A stretch of DNA of 34,811 nt, taken from Acidobacteriota bacterium. Its GTDB lineage: Bacteria; Acidobacteriota; Terriglobia; Terriglobales; Acidobacteriaceae. The notes under the pieces were generated by a model. It saw nothing but the letters and a program-made list of their open reading frames with translations. It was not told the origin of the DNA and made no database searches. The stretch is taken from contig QIAP01000081.1 of the NCBI GenBank assembly GCA_003225075.1, positions 1 to 34,811 on the forward strand, written 5' to 3'. The first letter of the stretch is position 1. Every line of letters starts with the position of its first letter. The position numbers were made by a program, and so were the translations under genes. Positions 7,754 to 20,322 of this stretch are shown in pieces.

Positions 7754-8958
7754 CTAGAATACTTTCACGAAATTTTTCCCCGGCATCTGCCTGACTTTCC
7801 CGGCCAGCTCCAATTCGAAAAGTGCAGCGAAAATCTCGGACAATGACACCTCCCCCTCCAGCCGCTCCACGAGCTCATCAATGTGCGTGGATTCATCGGC
7901 TTTGAGCAGAGCAAATATCTTCTTTTCGTGGGGGGCGAGTTCTGCGTCGTCCCCGAATAAGAGATGCAGTCCCGGCCCGCGGCGATTCAGCGGTAGCCGG
8001 CCCCAACAACAGTCGCACCTCCGCCGGCAGATCATCCCAAACATCTTCCCAGGTGGCGACCAGCTTGGCTCCCTGCTTTATCAAAGTGTTAGCTCCCCAG
8101 GAGTTCTTGTTTGTAACATTGCCTGGAACTGCAAATACATCGCGATTCTGCTCCCGTGCGCAGCGCGCCGTAATGCGTGTGCCGCTGTAGTCGGCCGCCT
8201 CAACCACCAGCACGCCCACTGACATCCCGCTGATAATGCGATTGCGAATGGGGAAAGTTTTGCGGGAATGCAGCAGTGCCCATAGGGAATTCCGAAATCA
8301 ATGCTCCGCCACACCCCAGTATCTGCTCCGATAGCCGCGAGTTTTCTTTGGGATAAATCAGGTTAATACCAGTACCGAACACCGCCACTGTTTTGCCTTT
8401 CGCAGTAATCGCACCGCGATGTCCGGCGGTATCCACTCCCCGCGCCATGCCACTTATGATGACCAGCCCGCGGGCCGCTAGATCACACGCCAGTCGCTCT
8501 GCCAAGCCCGAACCGTAGGGGGTGGGATGACGTGTGCCTACCAGCGCAATTCCGGGCTGGGAAATTGCATCTGACTTCCCTCGAACGTACAACACCATGG
8601 GCGCATCGTAGATTTGTTTGAGTTGTGCTGAATAGGATGAATCCTCGAGCGATACAATTTTTACGCCCTCCGCGATGGCGCGCTCTGCCTCTTCCTTCGC
8701 CAGTTCAATTGATTTACCGGTAGCCAGCGACTGCGCTGAGCTGGCGAGAATGCCCGTCGCTTCCAGTTCAGTCAGAGAAGCACGGAATACGGCTGCTACC
8801 CCACCGAGGTATTCCACAACACGTCGCGCCCGGGTCGGGCCTAAACCCGGCGTCAGCGAGAGAGCTAGCCATTCGAGGGTATGGGCCTCATGGGCTGTGG
8901 CAATCGCTGTTGACCTGGCTGTGGACACCGCTGCCTCCACGTCGCGGACTGTACACAC
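7754..8958 (-). pseudogene. dprA: dprA (DNA processing protein A), broken by two +1 frameshifts
   Basis: Three frames together give one complete DprA, the RecA loader for transformed single-stranded DNA. Piece 1 (8958 to about 8250) has an N-terminal helical domain and the Rossmann-like core: GIALVGTRHPTPYG, ISGMARGVDTAGH and [14 protein letters not shown]. Piece 2 (about 8250 to 7960) continues with [16 protein letters not shown] and [18 protein letters not shown]. Piece 3 (about 7960 to 7754) is the winged-helix end, [20 protein letters not shown]. Frame 1 to 2 is repaired by removing one base from the GGGG run at 8250-8253. The second shift lies near 7951-7975. Either the gene is decaying or the sequence has errors here; the neighbouring genes are intact. 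The first codon is GTG (8956-8958), and the exact start is uncertain. Confidence 0.85.
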
Positions 8959-9032
8959 GCTCTAATCTTGCGTCAAGGAGCGCGGTCACAGCAGTTTGTT
9001 AGAATCGAGGCTTGACCATCAAGGGTGCGCTC

Positions 9033-9890
9033 ATGAGACGGCTGCGGATTTCGGCAATTTCATACCTCAACACCGCGCCTCTGATGTGGGACTTCGAACA
9101 CGGTACGGCGGCGGCCGAGTTCGATCTTTCTTATACGATTCCTTCTGCCTGCGCGGCCGCCTTAAGCGCCGCAACCGCCGATATTGGCATCATTCCGGCC
9201 GCCGCGTACGCCACCATCCCCGACCTGGTTATTTTGCCGGGGGTAGCAATCGCCTCTCGTAATGCCGTCCGGTCAATTCTTTTGATCAGCAAAATCCCAT
9301 TGGAGAGAGTCCGCACGGTTGCTCTGGATACCTCTTCCATCACTTCGGTCGCGCTCACCAAAATATTGTTCGCGAAGTGGCTTGGCGGGAAACGGCAGTA
9401 CACCTACATGGCGCCCAACTTAGACCAAATGCTGGAGCAGCACGACGCTGCCCTGGTGATTGGGGATCCTGCGTTAAAGGTGGACTGCTCGCGTTACCTG
9501 GCCTTGGATTTAGGTCAGGACTGGCGAGAGCGAACCGGAAAGCCCTTTGTTTTTGCTTTCTGGGCCGTACGCCGCACGGCGCTGCAAGATGGAACCTCCG
9601 TTGACCTGGTGAATACATTTCAAGAATCGCGCGATCATGGATTAGAACCCCAAAATCTCGCAGTTATCGCTCGTCTCTGGGGGTCACGGCTGGGTCTCAG
9701 CGCTACGGAGATCAATAGTTATCTGACGAAGAATATCCACTTTTATCTCGATCCGGAGTGTCTGGAAGGATTACAGCTCTTCTATCAATACGCGGCCGAG
9801 TGCGGTGTTCTGCCCTCTGCGCCTGCTTTGCAATTTCTGGACGTTCGGAATCCAGAGACCGCACGACTCGTGGCACTTGATCTTCACTGA
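9033..9890 (+). CDS. mqnA: Chorismate dehydratase MqnA (futalosine menaquinone pathway)
   Basis: 285 residues from the preferred start. MqnA converts chorismate to 3-enolpyruvyl-benzoate, the entry step of the futalosine route to menaquinone. The periplasmic-binding-protein-like fold is recognisable from the N-terminus (RISAISYLNTAPL), the Ser/Asn-rich active-site segment (DTSSITSVALTKILF), and DAALVIGDPAL followed by GKPFVFAFW. I chose the ATG at 9033 because MRRLRISAISYLN is the usual MqnA beginning and AAGGG sits upstream; a TTG at 9012 would add seven residues but has its GAGG only one base away. dprA is divergent. The stop is inside a small hairpin (CTGACC 9887-9892 with GGTCAG 9900-9905). 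mqnC follows after one gene. Confidence 0.92.
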   Translation: MRRLRISAISYLNTAPLMWDFEHGTAAAEFDLSYTIPSACAAALSAATADIGIIPAAAYATIPDLVILPGVAIASRNAVRSILLISKIPLERVRTVALDTSSITSVALTKILFAKWLGGKRQYTYMAPNLDQMLEQHDAALVIGDPALKVDCSRYLALDLGQDWRERTGKPFVFAFWAVRRTALQDGTSVDLVNTFQESRDHGLEPQNLAVIARLWGSRLGLSATEINSYLTKNIHFYLDPECLEGLQLFYQYAAECGVLPSAPALQFLDVRNPETARLVALDLH

Positions 9891-10603: not shown

Positions 10604-10633
10604 TTGGATCGAAACCATCCACTCCGATAGAAT
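10604..10633 (+). promoter_or_regulatory. Candidate sigma-70 promoter for mqnC
   Basis: TTGGAT (10604-10609) and TAGAAT (10628-10633) are spaced 18 bases apart. If used, transcription would begin near 10640, so the upstream ATG at 10632 could not be the start and the ATG at 10662 would be. Similar TAGAAT hexamers stand shortly before other genes in this window (9000, 16171, 25934). Confidence 0.35.
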
Positions 10634-10661
10634 GTGTAGTACTGGTCGGTCCGTTCAAGTC

Positions 10662-11708
10662 ATGATTCTCACCAAACAGCAAGCGCTCGAGATGTTCCGA
10701 TCAGATGACCTCATCGGCATCGGCATGGAAGCCAATTCGATACGCCGCAAGCTCCATCCCGAAGGTGTGGTCACGTACATCATCGACCGCAATATTAATT
10801 ACACGAATTTCTGCACTGAGTATTGCACCTTCTGCGCTTTCTATCGGCCACTCAAAGGGCAACGTGCTAAAGAAGGATACATTCTCGATCTCGAGACCAT
10901 CTACGACAAGATTCGTGAAACCGTCGAATTGGGCGGCACCGGCGTGCTGATGCAGGGCGGACTGCATCCCGACCTGAAGATTGATTGGCACGAGCAGATG
11001 CTGCGTGGCATCAAGCGGCGTTTTCCCAAAGTTCATTTGCACTGCTATTCAGCTTCCGAAATCATTGCCATTGCGGAGTACAGCTCGCTAAGCATTCGCG
11101 ACACAATCTCTTATCTGCGCGATGCCGGCCTTGATTCCATTCCCGGCGGGGGAGCCGAAATTCTGGATGACGAAGTGCGCTACCGCATCGCCCGCCTGAA
11201 GTGCCTCACCGACGACTGGCTCAATGTCCATCGCACCGCTCACCAACTGGGCATGCGTACTACCGCGACGATGATGTTCGGTGTGGGCGAAAACTTTGAG
11301 CACCGCGTCAACCACTTGCAGCGCTTGTACGATCTACAGGAAGAAACCGGGGGCTTCACCGCATTTATACCCTGGACATTTCAGCCGTCGAACACGGCAT
11401 TGGGTGGGCGTCATTGGGATGAGGCCACAGCGGTCGAGTATCTCAAGATGCTGGCGATTTCCCGGCTCTACCTTTCAAACTTCCTCAACGTGCAATCGAG
11501 CTGGGTCACACAGGGGCTCAAGGTGTGCCAAATGGGTCTCCGCTTCGGAGGAAATGATGTCGGATCGGTGATGTTGGAAGAAAACGTCGTGCGCGCCGCC
11601 GGCGTCACCAATTGCACCACCGAGGAGGAGCTGCGACGCATCATCCGCGATGCCGGCTTCCGCCCGGTTCAGCGGGACACGTTATATCGTACCTACTTCT
11701 TGAATTAG
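10662..11708 (+). CDS. mqnC: Cyclic dehypoxanthinyl futalosine synthase MqnC (radical SAM)
   Basis: 348 residues from the preferred start. MqnC is a radical SAM enzyme that cyclises dehypoxanthine futalosine. The 4Fe-4S/SAM motif is C51-x3-C55-x2-C58 in NFCTEYCTFCAF, preceded by VTYIIDRNINYTN, which distinguishes MqnC from MqnE. DAGLDSIPGGGAEIL and the TIM-barrel C-terminus (WTFQPSNTALGG) also fit MqnC. The longer ATG at 10632 would add ten residues (MCSTGRSVQV) unlike the family and overlaps a putative promoter; I prefer 10662, though neither has a strong Shine-Dalgarno sequence. It works with mqnA just upstream and mqnD at 19438; mqnB and mqnE are not in the window. Confidence 0.94.
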   Translation: MILTKQQALEMFRSDDLIGIGMEANSIRRKLHPEGVVTYIIDRNINYTNFCTEYCTFCAFYRPLKGQRAKEGYILDLETIYDKIRETVELGGTGVLMQGGLHPDLKIDWHEQMLRGIKRRFPKVHLHCYSASEIIAIAEYSSLSIRDTISYLRDAGLDSIPGGGAEILDDEVRYRIARLKCLTDDWLNVHRTAHQLGMRTTATMMFGVGENFEHRVNHLQRLYDLQEETGGFTAFIPWTFQPSNTALGGRHWDEATAVEYLKMLAISRLYLSNFLNVQSSWVTQGLKVCQMGLRFGGNDVGSVMLEENVVRAAGVTNCTTEEELRRIIRDAGFRPVQRDTLYRTYFLN

Positions 11709-13882: not shown

Positions 13883-15517
13883 TTGCTGAACTGCGCGCCC
13901 ATTTCGTCCTTTGCAATACTTGTCGCTCTGTCCGCATCTCGCGGCATTTGGCAATACTTCCGCCAGCATTTTCTTGATCGGACATTCCAGGGCCTCTACC
14001 ACGCCAATGCATTCGACATGGCCTTGTTGATCCCATACTTCGTCGTGCTGGTACTGCTGGCCTCCTACGGCATACACCGCTATACCCTGGTTTACCTTTA
14101 TTACAAAAACAAGAAGAACCGCACCCTTGATCCGCTAGCGTATTTCTCTGATCTGCCACGAGTCACGGTTCAACTTCCAATCTTTAACGAGCAATACGTT
14201 GTTGATCGTCTCCTGGATGCCATTTGCCGGCTGAACTATCCGCGAGAGAAGTTGGACATCCAGGTGCTGGACGATTCCACGGACGAAACCAGGACGGTTG
14301 CGCGCAATCTGGTGGAGCGGTATGCAGCTTTGGGAAACCCCATCACCTACCACTACCGCAGGAAGCGTTTCGGGTTCAAAGCCGGTGCACTCGCGGAAGG
14401 ATTGAAGACAGCAAAAGGCGAGTTCGTCGCTATTTTCGATGCCGACTTCGTACCGCCAGAGGATTTTCTTCTGCGTACTATCCACCATTTCACCGATCCG
14501 AAGGTCGGCATGGTGCAGACGCGCTGGACACACATCAATCGCCACTACTCGTTTCTTACTGAAGTTGAAGCCATTCTGCTCGACGGACATTTTGTGCTCG
14601 AACACTCGGGCCGCGCCCGCAGTGGCGTCTTTTTCAATTTCAACGGCACTGCGGGGGTCTGGCGGCGGCGCGCTATCGATGAAGCGGGCGGATGGCAACA
14701 CGATACTCTGACCGAAGATACCGACCTCTCCTATCGGGCTCAGCTCCTGGGTTGGAAATTTATCTACTTGCAGGATGTCGAGTGCCCCGCCGAATTACCG
14801 GTGGAAATGACGGCTTTCAAGACCCAGCAGGCGCGCTGGGCAAAAGGCCTGATCCAAACTTGCAAGAAAATCCTGCCCCGCGTGCTGAAAAGCGATGTGC
14901 CGGGTCGGGTGAAGCTCGAGGCCTGGTATCACCTGACAGCGAATCTCAGTTACCCGCTGATGATCGTGTTGTCGGTGCTTCTGTTGCCAGCCATGGTTAT
15001 TCGCTTTTACCAGGGATGGTTTCAGATGATGTACATCGATCTCCCGTTATTTTTGGCGTCGACGTTCTCCATCTCGAGCTTCTACCTGGTGTCCCAGAAG
15101 GAATTATTTCCCAAGACCTGGCCGCGTGCTCTGCTTTATCTCCCCTTTCTGATGGCGCTCGGCATTGGTTTGACAGTCACCAACACCTGCGCGGTGCTGG
15201 AGGCTCTCGCCGGCAAGCAGAGCGCGTTCGCCCGCACACCGAAATACCGGGTGGAATCGAAAAAAGATAAAGTGGCTGCTAACACGTACCGCCGACGCTT
15301 GGGCTGGGTACCGTGGCTGGAGATGCTCATCGGCTCATACTTCGCTCTCACCGTGTACTACGCTGTGGACAACGAGAATTACATTACCGTACCGTTCCTC
15401 ATATTATTTGTGGTCGGCTATTGGTACACGGGTCTAATGTCGCTGCTGCAGGGGCGTTTTGCCGGCCTTGCTTTGAGCGCAGACAGTCACAACAAACCCT
15501 TCCCCGTAGGCGTCTAA
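13883..15517 (+). CDS. Cellulose-synthase-like family 2 glycosyltransferase
   Basis: 544 residues. This is a processive-type GT2 membrane enzyme with two N-terminal hydrophobic segments (about 46-75) and a cytoplasmic catalytic domain. It carries the four hallmark motifs: VLDDSTDET (129-136), DAD (186-188), TED (277-279) and QQARW (315-319, the QxxRW motif). About four C-terminal membrane segments follow (about 345-430 and 465-530). It probably uses a nucleotide sugar to build a beta-linked polysaccharide that is extruded through its own channel; the product (mannan, glucan or other) cannot be told. The start is the TTG at 13883, forced by an in-frame TGA at 13874; the conserved FLDRTFQGLYHANAF requires a start upstream of the first ATG. 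No accessory cellulose genes adjoin it. Confidence 0.9.
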   Translation: MLNCAPISSFAILVALSASRGIWQYFRQHFLDRTFQGLYHANAFDMALLIPYFVVLVLLASYGIHRYTLVYLYYKNKKNRTLDPLAYFSDLPRVTVQLPIFNEQYVVDRLLDAICRLNYPREKLDIQVLDDSTDETRTVARNLVERYAALGNPITYHYRRKRFGFKAGALAEGLKTAKGEFVAIFDADFVPPEDFLLRTIHHFTDPKVGMVQTRWTHINRHYSFLTEVEAILLDGHFVLEHSGRARSGVFFNFNGTAGVWRRRAIDEAGGWQHDTLTEDTDLSYRAQLLGWKFIYLQDVECPAELPVEMTAFKTQQARWAKGLIQTCKKILPRVLKSDVPGRVKLEAWYHLTANLSYPLMIVLSVLLLPAMVIRFYQGWFQMMYIDLPLFLASTFSISSFYLVSQKELFPKTWPRALLYLPFLMALGIGLTVTNTCAVLEALAGKQSAFARTPKYRVESKKDKVAANTYRRRLGWVPWLEMLIGSYFALTVYYAVDNENYITVPFLILFVVGYWYTGLMSLLQGRFAGLALSADSHNKPFPVGV

Positions 15518-15664
15518 GTTCTTTTAGTTAGGTTAGCGGCTGATTCGGCTACTTCTTGGCCTGAAACCTTTGGCGCTGTGGCACGTCACATATCAGCAAC
15601 ACGGATTTTGAGAACCCGGTTGCTGGTAAAAAGGGCAATCGATCGGGTTGCCATAGAGGACTGA

Positions 15665-16111
15665 ATGAAGAAGGTTTTCTCTACGATAATATTGTTTCTG
15701 GTAATTTCGACGGCGGTCCGCGCCGCCGACAACTTGCGGCTTAACCCGAAACTCGACTTCAGCAGCGACAGCCAGGATGGCCCGCTCATCATCGGCGACC
15801 ATATGGATGATGGGGCTCAGAAGGGCAAGCCGAATTACATCATTATTTATGGCGAAGGTTGATTCAATTCCAAGCGGCAGGCTCGCCGCTCCGTTGACCT
15901 CTACAACAAATATGAAGACCGCGTCCACTTCGTAGTGATAGATATCGATAAGAAACTTTCGCCTAGCCAGCAGGAACTCGTTAAAAAATATTATCAGGGG
16001 TACATTCCGCACCTAGTAGTGTTGGATCGCGCTAGTAAGGCGCTTTACAATTCTTCGGGCGAAGTGGAGGAGTCCGTGATTTCGGCGATTCTCGACAAGG
16101 CTTTGCCGTGA
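15665..16111 (+). CDS. Candidate secreted thioredoxin-fold selenoprotein (in-frame TGA, UxxS)
   Basis: One frame runs from ATG 15665 (AGAGGA 5 bases upstream) to TGA 16109-16111, interrupted only by TGA at 15860-15862. Read as selenocysteine the product is 148 residues: a signal peptide (residues 1-21), then a thioredoxin fold with beta strand NYIIIYGEG, Sec66 in U-F-N-S (the CxxC position), helix KRQARRSVDLYNKY, strand VHFVVIDID, and the cis-Pro loop with P115 in GYIPHLVVLD. The TGA falls exactly where the first catalytic Cys belongs, and the downstream part keeps clean coding features. A stem-loop fitting bacterial SECIS rules follows (15873-15890). A thiol-redox role in the cell envelope is inferred. 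Alternatives are a nonsense mutation or a sequencing error. The selenocysteine genes (selA, selB, selC, selD) are not in this window. Confidence 0.7.
15873..15890 (+). promoter_or_regulatory. Candidate bacterial SECIS stem-loop
   Basis: AGCGGC (15873-15878) and GCCGCT (15885-15890) form a perfect 6-bp stem with the 6-base loop AGGCTC. The loop starts 16 bases after the TGA at 15860-15862 and has G at its second position. Known bacterial SECIS elements have an apical loop of 3-14 bases beginning 16-37 bases after the UGA, with G in one of the first two loop positions. A lower CAA/TTG pairing (15865-15867 with 15894-15896) is possible. Confidence 0.55.
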
Positions 16112-16237
16112 AGCACAGACAGGCTGCCAGCGTCGGACGGTGCTTCTTTCCTTTTGTCGCCGTGGTCGGGTAGAATCCATCTCGCCTTCCGCGCCTGGCT
16201 TTAGCTCAGCCACGTCGGCTGCTCTGAGGAGGATCCG

Positions 16238-17239
16238 ATGTCCCGCTTGCAGAAACTGCTCACCCTGATTCCCCTTGCAATGCTGCTGCTCCCCATCCTG
16301 AATTGTGGATCAGCGCACGATGCTGATGAAAAATATTTTCTGATCGCGTCCAACGTTCAGATTCCTTACTGGCAGACGGCCGCAGCAGGATTCTCGCAGT
16401 CCGCCAGTCAGCTGAAAGTGCGTGCCGAGATAGCTGGACCCGACACCTTCGATCCCAAAGCGGAGCAGCAAGCCTTCGAAAAGGCATTACAGCAGAAGCC
16501 CACGGGGATTTTGATTTCGGTTGCCGACCCCAAGCTCCTGAAGGAGGACATTGACAAAGCCATCGCCGCCGGTGTTCCGGTGATCACCTTCGATTCCGAC
16601 GCACCCGCGAGCAAACGGCTATTCTTTATCGGCACCAATAATTACCAGGCTGGAATCACCGGCGGCGAACGTCTTGCCACCGAACTGCATGGCAAGGGTA
16701 ACGTCGTGGTTTTCAGCATGCCCGAGCAAATCAATCTTGCCGAGCGGCTGCGTGGCTATCGCGACGCGCTGGAGAACAAGGCGCAGATAAAAATTGTTCG
16801 TGTCGTTGATATCAAGGGCGACCCGAGGGTCGCTTTCGACACGGCTACCCAGATCCTTGGTAAGGAGAAGAACAAGGTGGACGCCTTCGTCTGCCTCGAG
16901 GCGCTTGCCGGGAAGGAAGTCGCCACCGTGCTCAGCAACAACAACGTCAAAGATAAAGTCGTCATGGCGATGGACACCGATCCTGACACGCTGGAGTGGA
17001 TACAGAAAGGCGTAATCGCTGCCACCATCTCTCAGAAGCCCTACACCATGGCCTTTGTGGGCCTCCGAATGATGGACGATCTTTATCACCATAAGCTCAA
17101 TTCACTCGATGTGGATTGGGCCAAGAATAGCTTTGCTCCCATTCCTGCATTCGTAGATACAGGATCAGCCCTGATTGATAAAAGCAACGTGGACGCGTTC
17201 AATCAAGCCAAGAAATCCGTAACCGGCGGACAAAAATAA
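16238..17239 (+). CDS. Sugar-type ABC transporter substrate-binding lipoprotein (RbsB-like)
   Basis: 333 residues. The signal sequence ends in a lipobox (ILNC, Cys23), so the mature protein should be anchored by lipid. The rest is a type 1 periplasmic binding fold of the ribose/galactose family: YFLIASNVQIPYWQTAAAGF, ILISVADP, GVPVITFDSDAP, FFIGTNNYQAGITGGERLA, and DAFVCLEALAGKEVATVL. A strong GGAGG precedes the ATG, supporting the start. No ABC permease or ATPase gene adjoins it, so it is an orphan that may use a distant transporter or serve as a sensor. The ligand cannot be assigned. An aminopeptidase gene follows after 27 bases and may be co-transcribed. Confidence 0.9.
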   Translation: MSRLQKLLTLIPLAMLLLPILNCGSAHDADEKYFLIASNVQIPYWQTAAAGFSQSASQLKVRAEIAGPDTFDPKAEQQAFEKALQQKPTGILISVADPKLLKEDIDKAIAAGVPVITFDSDAPASKRLFFIGTNNYQAGITGGERLATELHGKGNVVVFSMPEQINLAERLRGYRDALENKAQIKIVRVVDIKGDPRVAFDTATQILGKEKNKVDAFVCLEALAGKEVATVLSNNNVKDKVVMAMDTDPDTLEWIQKGVIAATISQKPYTMAFVGLRMMDDLYHHKLNSLDVDWAKNSFAPIPAFVDTGSALIDKSNVDAFNQAKKSVTGGQK

Positions 17240-17266: not shown

Positions 17267-18616
17267 ATGCGCAGATCCACAGTCGCCTTTGTCGTCGTCG
17301 TATGTGTCTTTCTGCTCCCCTTTGCTGCTGCTCTCGACCGGCAACCGAACGCTGACTACCGCGCCCGCCGCGAGGCATTAGCCAGGAAAACTGAAGGTGG
17401 CATCATTGTAATCTTCGCACCCATGGAGGCCGAAGGCCCAAACGATCTCTACGGCTTTCGCCAGGACAATAAATTCTTTTATCTCTCAGGCTGGTCTGAA
17501 CCAGGCGCTGCTCTGCTCATAGCGCCCCCAGCACAGGCGACTCCCAGTTCATCCGCGCGTGCCTATACTGAAATTCTGTTCCTTCCCGCCCACAATCCAT
17601 CGCAGGAGCGGTGGACTGGGCCAAAGTTGGGCCCCGAGAATCCCGATGCGCCCAAAATCACGGGCTTCGATCGTGTCGAAGTCATCGATCGATTACGCGA
17701 CGAACTAGTCCGGCTCTTGCCTCAGCCGCGGGCCACCCTGTACAGCGATTTGCCCGCTTTCGGCCAAGCCTCAGCCTCCGCGGAAGCTCTGGACTGGCTC
17801 AAGCGGGCCAATGCTTTCCCCACCTACGTTTCCTTTCAGGACGTGAAACCGTTACTTGCTTACCTCCGTACTTTCAAAGACGCCGGTGAAATCGATCGCA
17901 TTCGCAAAGCCACAGACGCTTCCGTCGCGGCGCACTTGGCCGCGTTTCACGCGGTAAAACCGGAGGTCTCCGAGCGCGAGATCTCGGCTTTAATGCAATA
18001 TGAGTGGGGCAAACGGGGCTGCGAGCGCCCTGCATACGCGCCGATCGTGGGGTCAGGTTTCAATTCTACCGTGCTGCACTATTCGGACGATTCTGTAATC
18101 ATCCACGCCGGCGATGTCGTGGTGATTGATGCAGCCGGGGAATATTCCATGTATGCCTCCGACATCACGCGGACTTTCCCGGCAACAGGAAAATTCAGTC
18201 CTCGCCAGCGTGAGATCTACGACATTGTCTTGGGGGCCCAGCAGGCTGCGATTGCGGCGTTTCAGCCAGGTAAATCAACCCTGAGGCGTGATGATCCTAA
18301 CTCGCTTTATAAAGTCGCCTATGAGTACATCAACTCGCACGGAAAAGATAAACAAGGAGCACCGCTCGGCAAATACTTCATCCACGGGCTCAGCCACTAT
18401 GTGGGCCTCAACGTACATGACGATGGCGATTATACGTTGCCGCTCGCTCCTGGAATGGTCTTCACTATTGAGCCGGGTATTTATATCCCGGAAGAAAAGC
18501 TGGGTGTGCGCATCGAAGACGTTTTTTTCGTGGACAACAACGACAAGCTTATAAACCTGTCTGCCGCCTTGCCACACACTGCCGACGAGGTCGAACAGGC
18601 TATGGCGGCAAAATAA
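17267..18616 (+). CDS. Exported Xaa-Pro aminopeptidase (M24B, PepP-like)
   Basis: 449 residues. A signal peptide (MRRSTVAFVVVVCVFLLPFAAA) is followed by an aminopeptidase-P N-terminal domain (about 25-175) and a pita-bread M24 catalytic domain. The metal ligands are recognisable: the first Asp in VVVIDAAGEYSMYASD, the second Asp in that segment before ITRTFP, His in HGLSHYVGLNVHD, Glu in TIEPGIYI, and Glu in RIEDVF. It should remove N-terminal residues that precede proline. The export signal indicates action in the periplasm or outside, unlike cytoplasmic E. coli PepP. AGAGGAA precedes the ATG. It is 27 bases behind the binding lipoprotein and just ahead of a small membrane protein and bioY. 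Confidence 0.92.
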   Translation: MRRSTVAFVVVVCVFLLPFAAALDRQPNADYRARREALARKTEGGIIVIFAPMEAEGPNDLYGFRQDNKFFYLSGWSEPGAALLIAPPAQATPSSSARAYTEILFLPAHNPSQERWTGPKLGPENPDAPKITGFDRVEVIDRLRDELVRLLPQPRATLYSDLPAFGQASASAEALDWLKRANAFPTYVSFQDVKPLLAYLRTFKDAGEIDRIRKATDASVAAHLAAFHAVKPEVSEREISALMQYEWGKRGCERPAYAPIVGSGFNSTVLHYSDDSVIIHAGDVVVIDAAGEYSMYASDITRTFPATGKFSPRQREIYDIVLGAQQAAIAAFQPGKSTLRRDDPNSLYKVAYEYINSHGKDKQGAPLGKYFIHGLSHYVGLNVHDDGDYTLPLAPGMVFTIEPGIYIPEEKLGVRIEDVFFVDNNDKLINLSAALPHTADEVEQAMAAK

Positions 18617-18832: not shown

Positions 18833-19441
18833 ATGTCTTTGATTTGGAGAACCCAGGAAATGGCAAGAATGGCTACCAACACTCTCAGCAGCTCAAACTC
18901 GCGGGCTCTCGCCTGGGCGCGGCAGGTCGCGATTGTAGTGAGTGCCAGCCTGTTCGTAGCTCTTTGTGCCCGCGTCACGCTGCCGCTTCCTTTTACACCA
19001 GTCCCTTTGACATTGCAGAATTTTGCCGTCTTGCTGGTTGGAATGACGCTGGGTAGCAAGCGTGGGTTCGCCGCCTTGGCTCTCTATCTGGCTGAAGGTC
19101 TCGCCGGACTGCCCGTTTTCAACCCCACCGGCCCGGGAGGTCTCGCACAGTTGCTCGGTCCGACCGGCGGCTTTCTCATGGTCTATCCGCTGGTCGCCGC
19201 TCTTGCTGGATGGATTATGGAACGCGGACGCAAAAGTTTTCTGCGCGCCTCGCTGGCAGGGTTTCTCGCTGAGATCGTTCTTTTCTCGGGTGGCATTACC
19301 TGGTTGGCAATTCTGACTCATTCTTTTGCACAAGCGGTGCGCTTCGGACTCTATTGGTTCGTGTTTGCCGAGGTAATCAAAGTAATGGCGGCGGCCGCAG
19401 TTGCTGTCCGTCTGCGACGTGCTAACAAGGTCGACGCATGA
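18833..19441 (+). CDS. bioY: Biotin transporter S-component BioY
   Basis: 202 residues, about six membrane segments. The BioY core is clear: the N-terminal helix with [24 protein letters not shown] (about 48-71), the Gly-rich [19 protein letters not shown], and the conserved glycines in between. BioY binds biotin in the inner membrane, usually with the energy-coupling EcfA/EcfT module; no such genes are nearby, so it is either a solitary BioY or uses a shared module. Starts at 18833, 18860 (preceded by CAGGAA) and 18869 are possible. The stop overlaps the mqnD start in ATGA (19438-19441), so translation of the two is coupled. No biotin-repressor operator was recognised upstream. Confidence 0.92.
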
Positions 19442-20322
19442 GCATCACAGTAGATACCAAAGATTACCCGCACAGTGGTACGCCTTCCGACACTCGCGAG
19501 ATTACCGTTGCCCACAGTCCAGATTCCGACGATGCATTCATGTTCTACGGACTGGCCACTAATAAAGTGCGCGTGCCCAGGCTGCGCTTTACTCATACTC
19601 TTTGCGATATTGAAACTCTAAATCAGAAGGCGATGGACGGCGTATTCGACGTGACCGCCATTTCCTTCCATGCCTACCCGTATATCCAGGATAAGTACGC
19701 GCTGCTGCCGAGTGGCGGAAGCGTCGGCGAAGGCTATGGTCCGATGATTGTTGCCAGCCATCCCTACACCCAGAGTGAGATCAAACGAAAGCGTATCGCC
19801 GTCCCCGGTACTCTAACCACGGCATATCTCGTCCTCCGGCTCTTTGCACCGGGAATAGAGACTGACGTGGTGCCCTTTGACCAAATCATTCCACAGGTTC
19901 TGGAGGGCAAGCAGGAAGCCGGGCTCATCATCCACGAAGGCCAATTGAGTTATGCAAAGTCTGGCTTGCAGCGCATCATTGATCTGGGAAGATGGTGGCA
20001 AAAAATAACCGGGTTGCCGCTGCCGCTCGGAGGAAATGCGATCCGGCGTGGCCTCGGCGACGAGCTCATGACTAGTGTTGCCTCAGCGCTCCGCGAAAGC
20101 ATTCAATACGCTCTCGACCATCGTGATGAAGCTCTCGCCTACGCCATGCAGTTCGCCCGCGACCTCGATTCCCAACTGGCCGACAAGTTTGTTGGCATGT
20201 ACGTGAACGAGCGTACTCTCGACTACGGACCGGATGGCCGTGAAGCCATACGCCGTCTGCTTGATATGGGTCATAAAGCGGGAATCATCCCCCATGCGGC
20301 ACGAGTGGAGTTTGTGGGGTAG
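19438..20322 (+). CDS. mqnD: 1,4-dihydroxy-6-naphthoate synthase MqnD
   Basis: 294 residues. MqnD cleaves cyclic de-hypoxanthine futalosine to 1,4-dihydroxy-6-naphthoate, the step after MqnC. The family signature at the N-terminus is [19 protein letters not shown] (about 22-40), followed by [46 protein letters not shown], and [17 protein letters not shown] with its catalytic His (about residue 164). The first 20 residues are a nonconserved extension. Its ATG is inside the bioY stop (ATGA). It is separated from mqnA and mqnC by about 8 kb. A HAD hydrolase begins 7 bases after its stop, so bioY, mqnD and the HAD gene look like one transcript. Confidence 0.94.

Follow-up and report, generated by a model that had tools for sequence, protein, structure and literature searches.

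A candidate exported selenoprotein family with a thioredoxin fold and a single selenocysteine in Acidobacteriota

Introduction

ResA-type proteins are exported reductants, and ResA has a CxxC-type pair of cysteines. Monothiol thioredoxin folds are known as well, such as the CGFS glutaredoxins, which bind iron-sulfur clusters. In the portion considered here of a source on lumen labelling, slr1796 is listed as a thylakoid-specific thioredoxin (PMC7880944).

A 2026 review states the number of selenoprotein families or subfamilies as 119 (PMC13188914). In the portion of that review considered here, Table 1 holds a Sec-containing thioredoxin and a thiol:disulfide interchange selenoprotein (PF13098), both of the UxxC type, and UxxS is listed for a rhodanese-like form 1 (PF00581), an arsenate reductase (TIGR00014) and a peroxiredoxin-like AhpC/TSA protein (cd02970). 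The same portion gives the rules for a bacterial SECIS: a loop of 3–9 nt, a stem of 4–16 bp, a G in the first two loop positions, a distance of 16–37 nt after the UGA and an energy of at most -7.5 kcal/mol (PMC13188914). Acidobacteria are unmentioned in this portion, and Acidobacteriota are barely mentioned in the parts of the selenoprotein literature covered by our search. For one acidobacterium, the excerpted deep-Sep study gives 3 known and 0 new selenoprotein genes (PMC12013277).

Here we analyse a window, i.e., the whole stretch of 34,811 nucleotides of contig QIAP01000081.1, in which a sequence-only reading had proposed a secreted thioredoxin-like selenoprotein with a UxxS motif. The gene very probably encodes a genuine selenoprotein, whose thioredoxin-fold family is unlisted.

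Results

A reading frame with one internal TGA

The forward-strand frame at 15665–16111 runs from an ATG (15665–15667) to a final TGA stop (16109–16111). Its sole interruption is a TGA at codon 66, beyond which 82 sense codons follow. Translation, which gives 148 residues, bears out the proposal that one frame is broken just by the TGA at 15860–15862 and has a normal stop downstream, and the stretch GYIPHLVVLD, described as intact past this TGA, corresponds to residues 112–121. As had also been anticipated, the standard reading truncates the gene at 65 codons, so that the family is easily missed. The window's own genome contains one match to the read-through product. The features of the gene are as follows:

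15655–15659, forward strand: AGAGG, likely ribosome-binding site, 5 bases 5' of the ATG
15665–16111, forward strand: putative selenoprotein gene, 148 codons in the read-through translation, with Sec at codon 66
15860–15862, forward strand: putative Sec codon UGA, residue 66, position 1 of U-F-N-S (from the sequence and the homologue rows)
15873–15890, forward strand: SECIS-type stem-loop with a 6-bp stem and a 6-nt loop (AGGCUC), the loop lying 16 nt past the UGA
15890–15892, forward strand: codon 76, TCC (Ser), whose T pairs with the A at 15873 and closes the stem

In the hairpin, AGCGGC (15873–15878) pairs with GCCGCT (15885–15890) around the loop AGGCTC (15879–15884), which has G at positions 2 and 3. 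The perfect 6-bp stem and the 6-base loop that starts 16 bases past the TGA are therefore present where they had been reported, and the reported fit to the published bacterial SECIS rules extends to every rule given above, with an energy of -10.2 kcal/mol. We scanned the entire window for hairpins under these rules and required a stem of 6 bp or more, which is stricter than the published 4. A comparable hairpin follows 54 of the 1077 TGA triplets in any frame and on either strand (approximately 5%). Among 27 TGA-ended ORFs in the window (at least 50 codons long and open for at least 60 codons further), a rule-meeting hairpin is present at the codon 66 TGA only. The free energy of the hairpin is unremarkable (z of -1.8 and -2.1 for two lengths, and -0.6 to -2.1 over five single-sequence folds). 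Given this ordinary free energy and the 54 comparable hairpins, a SECIS called from the single sequence is just suggestive, and it is the homologues that carry the case. An Rfam scan of 15600–16200 gave 9 minus-strand matches of snoRNA type; all are under the gathering score and none lies at the hairpin.

Residue 66 in homologues

A lone genome with an in-frame stop would look the same if the TGA were a nonsense mutation in a pseudogene, with the remainder of the frame decaying; the standard reading does, after all, end after 65 codons. An order-wide search of 397 genomes gave matches in 37, made up of 10 TGA rows, 23 readable Cys rows and 4 that were set aside: the frames of G252 and G161 are broken, G124 yields a fragment of 27 residues, and G197 matches at 31%. 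Three Cys rows were added (G755, a second copy in G288, L059, and the distant G570) to give 36 rows, the window's included; L010–L013 were left out as presumed second records of G109, G196, G393 and G124. In a 32-row alignment, identity to the window protein is 51–70%. Named matching records include Acidobacteria gp1 and Candidatus Sulfotelmatobacter (NCBI: Terriglobales, Candidatus Korobacteraceae).

Codon 66 is TGA in 10, TGC in 19 and TGT in 7 of the 36 readable rows, and never TAA or TAG. Homologues thus do have Cys at residue 66, the point on which the sequence-only reading had suggested checking them: the in-frame UGA aligns with Cys in 26 rows, and no readable row has neither Cys nor TGA. 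The pattern with which the rows were gathered required Cys or TGA at this site; a re-scan that dropped the requirement covered 59 loci that have the downstream motif, counting duplicates, and read Cys in 35 and TGA in 24, with nothing else at the site. The TGA forms come from 10 genomes in 8 genus groups, and a miscalled TGC or TGT in 10 assemblies is very unlikely. That the same codon is TGA in all of these genomes, and never another stop, speaks against a nonsense pseudogene.

In two further copies of the family the frame is disrupted at the active site or beside it, through decay or assembly error. In G252 (L062), which is uncounted and lies outside the catch of the re-scan, the upstream frame is broken and the downstream frame has Gly at the site; in G161 (L063), also uncounted, Cys is at the site and the frame breaks just past it. 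Such copies lend some weight to the nonsense-pseudogene reading.

The family alignment, used as the query against 396 genomes across the phylum, matched 3 at E<=1e-12, two of them already known and the third G570, the distant Cys form (CFNT). A 29-base pattern of the SECIS core, allowing at most 2 mismatches, matched 18 of 398 genomes of the taxonomic family (most of them already in the order-wide set, the new ones being G749 upward): the 10 known TGA forms, with 0 mismatches, and 8 Cys forms, with no additional TGA member. The reversed control pattern gave 0 among the matches listed. A plasmid search for relatives returned none.

One genome, G288, has both forms, a TGA form on contig C215 (L022) and a Cys form on C538 (L059). 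The latter clusters with sequences from genus groups g6 and g66; it is perhaps a paralogue, perhaps foreign DNA within the assembly.

Constraint on protein and RNA

In the 10 TGA rows, purifying selection acts on the protein beyond the TGA. For residues 67–147, mean pN is 0.243 and mean pS 0.611, with pN below pS in 45/45 pairs, which argues against a dead remnant; for residues 23–65 the means are 0.234 and 0.556, with pN below pS in 44/45 pairs. All 10 rows keep their own stop, 81–92 codons past the TGA. Together with the recurrence of TGA in 8 genus groups, this makes a decaying pseudogene extremely improbable, the two frame-broken copies notwithstanding.

An ORF on the minus strand (15593–16012, 139 aa) lies antisense to the gene and might itself be the real gene. 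It is free of stops in the window, and so is the matching frame in 14 of the 36 rows. The matching frame has stops in the other 22, however, and it is the sense frame that is conserved, so that we give the antisense ORF next to no chance of being genuine.

The RNA signal tracks the TGA. All 6 stem pairs are formed in 10/10 TGA rows and in 0/26 Cys rows. Formal covariation of the stem is weak, and rests on one compensatory pair because the TGA rows are related and their SECIS elements near-identical: in G080, one G-C pair has become C-G through two synonymous changes of Arg codons, with pairing kept. No other pair varies, and 53 of 500 shuffles reach the same level. Codon choice is a stronger signal of selection on the RNA than covariation. 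As a measure we took, for pairs of rows sharing a residue, the share using the same codon (L064 and L068 were left out of this test). In the 10 TGA rows this fraction is 0.925 over residues 69–76 versus 0.54 over 71 other columns, and the segment ranks first of the 80 eight-residue stretches scored in these rows; in 24 Cys rows it is 0.40, versus 0.48 elsewhere.

At residue 76, Ser is found in 10/10 TGA rows, always as TCC, while the 26 Cys rows have Thr (25) or Phe (1). The T of TCC closes the stem, and so the Ser in place of Thr at this residue of the protein appears to be imposed by the RNA signal.

These observations also bear on leaky decoding of the TGA, in which Trp, Gly or another residue would be inserted and no selenium would be involved. 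The Gly at the site in the frame-broken copy of G252 would fit such a scheme. On the other side are the Cys in 26/26 counted non-TGA rows, the SECIS-type hairpin that is complete in TGA rows only, and the presence of Sec machinery (below), and we regard leaky decoding as very improbable. The pseudogene, leaky-decoding and antisense-ORF readings were all rejected, on homologue codons, selection and antisense stops.

A predicted thioredoxin fold with one chalcogen residue

Two features of the protein were located from its sequence and from the alignment and model:

15665–15727, forward strand: presumed N-terminal export signal, residues 1–21 (MKK, a hydrophobic run, and VRA followed by AD)
16001–16009, forward strand: Tyr-Ile-Pro, residues 113–115, with Pro115 as the presumed cis-Pro

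The N-termini of homologues are hydrophobic too, and model confidence for the window protein is low for residues 1–20. The product would be exported through this signal. A structure model was built from 32 sequences, with Cys in place of Sec. Its mean pLDDT is 89.3, and strands and helices follow one another as in a thioredoxin, with residue 66 directly before helix 67–83 and Pro115, invariant in 32 rows, directly preceding strand 116–120. The best PDB matches by Foldseek are ResA-type proteins and thioredoxins, and the best by VIA-align are thioredoxins (6bkv_A: Z 12.1, rmsd 1.9, 96 residues). The thioredoxin fold that had been proposed for the read-through product is thus confidently predicted.

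For the window protein, every Pfam model stays under its cut-off; Thioredoxin_8 scores 21.4 and Thioredoxin_2 (PF13098) 21.3 bits, versus a gathering cut-off of 27. The same is true of NCBIfam 20.0 (2026), in which the only selenoprotein model to match the window protein is TsoB, at 11.7 of 805 bits; TsoB is matched by 2 of 32 members, with a best E of 7.7e-5. The nearest NCBIfam model is NF038096 (slr1796), which matches residues 47–145 of the window protein at E 6e-11 and 42 bits versus a cut-off of 140, and matches 32 of 32 members at E<=0.001. Across 366 phylum genomes, NF038096 has 0 matches above its cut-off, and only G000 and G035 match it at E<=1e-6.

The active-site motif is U/C-F/Y-N-S, from which three rows depart by a Ser or Trp in second place or a Thr in fourth. 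At position 69, 35 of the 36 rows carry Ser and one carries Thr; a second, resolving Cys is not present there. Apart from residue 66, the mature part has no Cys at all in 36/36 rows, of which L047 and L064 are incomplete because of unread bases; one row has a Cys within the signal segment. The sequence-only reading is silent on this lack of a further Cys. With no other Cys in the mature protein, an internal disulfide or selenylsulfide would not be possible. A single chalcogen residue likewise does not allow the classical two-cysteine cycle of thioredoxins, from which we infer a monoselenol mechanism.

The lack of a resolving Cys in all 36 rows would also suit a carrier, i.e., a protein in which Sec is inserted and the single Sec or Cys serves to bind a metal ion, a small molecule, or a species of selenium or sulfur. 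The CGFS glutaredoxins are a precedent for monothiol thioredoxin folds that bind a cluster. Against a carrier, the placement of the active site where a helix begins, the invariant Pro and the closest structures found are all those of thiol-disulfide proteins; in addition, no metal-ligand motif was seen by eye.

Machinery for selenocysteine insertion

The sequence-only reading had named selA, selB, selC and selD as genes to look for. The window's genome (4.79 Mb, 97.6% complete) contains all four, with tRNA-Sec at 70.2 bits (called SeC, anticodon tca, by ARAGORN), SelB at 369 bits, SelA at 545 bits and SelD at 350 bits, and so does not lack selenocysteine machinery. The SelD gene of this genome itself contains a TGA in frame, within KAAGUASK, and a strong hairpin comes after it. 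SelD with this TGA and a near-identical strong hairpin is found in nine TGA-form genomes (L103–L111); the tenth SelD (G288) is a fragment without the KAAGUASK part.

Over the 10 TGA-form genomes, tRNA-Sec is found in 7, SelA in 10, SelB in 9 and SelD in 10, with SelA and SelD each in two pieces in G317. SelB was not found in G126 at E<=1e-60. A tRNA-Sec was not found in G101, G188 and G317, where the best hits are ordinary tRNAs by ARAGORN (lower hits were partly checked); in G101, the Rfam tRNA-Sec hit of 49.4 bits is just above the cut-off and is called tRNA-Ser by ARAGORN. We read these gaps as incomplete assembly or missed genes.

Order-wide, 151 of 397 genomes have a tRNA-Sec at E<=1e-10; selenocysteine use in the order is common but patchy. 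A tRNA-Sec is present in 31/37 genomes with a family match versus 120/360 without, a comparison in which the 37 include the weak G124 and G197 matches and which ignores shared ancestry. The association makes a role in selenium handling conceivable and to that extent favours a carrier, but it may reflect only shared ancestry. Weighed against the thiol-disulfide character of the fold, we consider a carrier unlikely, at perhaps one chance in several, and favour an oxidoreductase.

Locus context and history of exchange

Three neighbours of the gene were identified by Pfam:

13883–15517, forward strand: glycosyltransferase family 2 (PF13632, PF13641)
16238–17239, forward strand: periplasmic binding protein (PF13407)
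17267–18616, forward strand: aminopeptidase P-like M24 peptidase (PF00557, PF05195)

With flanks of approximately 1.5 kb at the 36 loci, the glycosyltransferase is upstream in 6/10 TGA and 8/26 Cys loci, the periplasmic binding protein downstream in 2/10 and 11/26, and the M24 peptidase downstream in 5/10 and 6/26, respectively. None of the three is present in 17/36 loci (a 32% peptidase match upstream in L027 was not counted). Judged by these common neighbours, a number of the Sec and Cys forms sit at one and the same place as orthologues.

A tree was computed from 35 rows (L064 left out), with columns 66 and 76 removed. Sec and Cys forms are intermixed, with at least 5 changes between them on the best tree, and 0 of 200 bootstrap trees have one change. 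Support is limited in that 15 of 32 inner branches are open, most of the deep ones weak, and the bootstrap is unsettled; the well-supported branches force just 1 Sec/Cys change, and a single Sec group, with an AU p of 0.0502, is not firmly rejected. Taken together, the sequences make repeated Sec/Cys exchange likely.

One Cys form, L060 (G153), has 14 bases in codons 66–76 that are identical to the SECIS core (CGGCAGGCTCGCCG). With its sister L081 it groups weakly (84/59) with two TGA forms, and may be a relic of a reversal from Sec to Cys.

Elsewhere in the window, a dprA/smf-like gene (by translation) on the minus strand at 7754–8958 is spread over three overlapping frames (8200–8958, 7893–8225 and 7754–8044), as if by two frameshifts. 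The genes at 9012–9890, 10632–11708 and 19438–20322, which flank the locus on both sides, we take to be mqn-like genes of the menaquinone (futalosine) pathway.

Discussion

We think it highly likely that the gene encodes an exported selenoprotein, with its selenocysteine specified by UGA, a thioredoxin fold and the function of a monoselenol oxidoreductase. Comparison of sequences shows the Sec codon, selection acting on the SECIS, exchange between Sec and Cys, the insertion machinery and the lone chalcogen residue. SelB carrying Sec-tRNA-Sec would bind the hairpin at 15873–15890, and the UGA at 15860–15862 would be decoded as selenocysteine instead of as a stop. The product would then be exported by its N-terminal signal and fold as a thioredoxin, with the U-F-N-S active site opening the first long helix and Pro115 preceding a later core strand. 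It would most likely act with one residue: the selenolate would attack an oxidised thiol or a peroxide in the cell envelope, giving a mixed selenylsulfide or a selenenic acid; resolution of this selenium intermediate would fall to an outside thiol or a partner protein.

A fuller proposal goes further. It would make this a new exported family of monoselenol thioredoxin folds in Acidobacteriota that has switched several times between Sec and Cys, partly at one conserved locus of the chromosome, that has had its Thr76 turned into Ser by the SECIS, and that works as a periplasmic reductase or peroxidase with a partner as electron donor. We put this forward tentatively, and as a whole it seems to us somewhat short of probable.

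The locus enlarges the bacterial selenoproteome by a family that is apparently unlisted. With Sec and Cys forms found among close relatives, in several cases within one gene neighbourhood, and with a single reactive residue in the mature protein, the family offers a clean natural experiment on selenium versus sulfur. The difference between Thr and Ser that goes with the SECIS looks like a clear example of a protein sequence constrained by an RNA signal.

No entry of Table 1, in the portion of the review considered, fits the family of the window protein (PMC13188914), and we found no description of the family in the literature searched, from which most subscription journals are absent. Among the listed selenoproteins, the UxxC thioredoxin and thiol:disulfide interchange selenoproteins are alike in being of the thioredoxin type and in placing Sec first in the redox motif. 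They differ in having a second motif Cys, as listed in that portion, where the window protein has Ser and no other Cys. The three UxxS families share the motif itself; the window protein has no hit to PF00581 or TIGR00014, and the peroxiredoxin-like protein is listed under cd02970. The sequence-only reading had called a secreted UxxS member of this kind unusual; the motif itself is not unprecedented, as these three families have it (PMC13188914).

Two further systems resemble the window protein. The ResA-type oxidoreductases are its top Foldseek matches (4nmu, 2h1b, 1st9 and others), at 14–22% identity and with TM-scores of 0.49–0.56 by query length. The slr1796 protein (NF038096), as it appears in the portion of the source considered, is likewise a non-cytoplasmic thioredoxin-like protein and the nearest NCBIfam model, but it is cyanobacterial, and the window protein falls far under its cut-off. 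What is distinctive of the family described here is a presumably exported design with a single Sec, a clean pairing of Sec and Cys forms, and a Thr-to-Ser difference linked to the SECIS.
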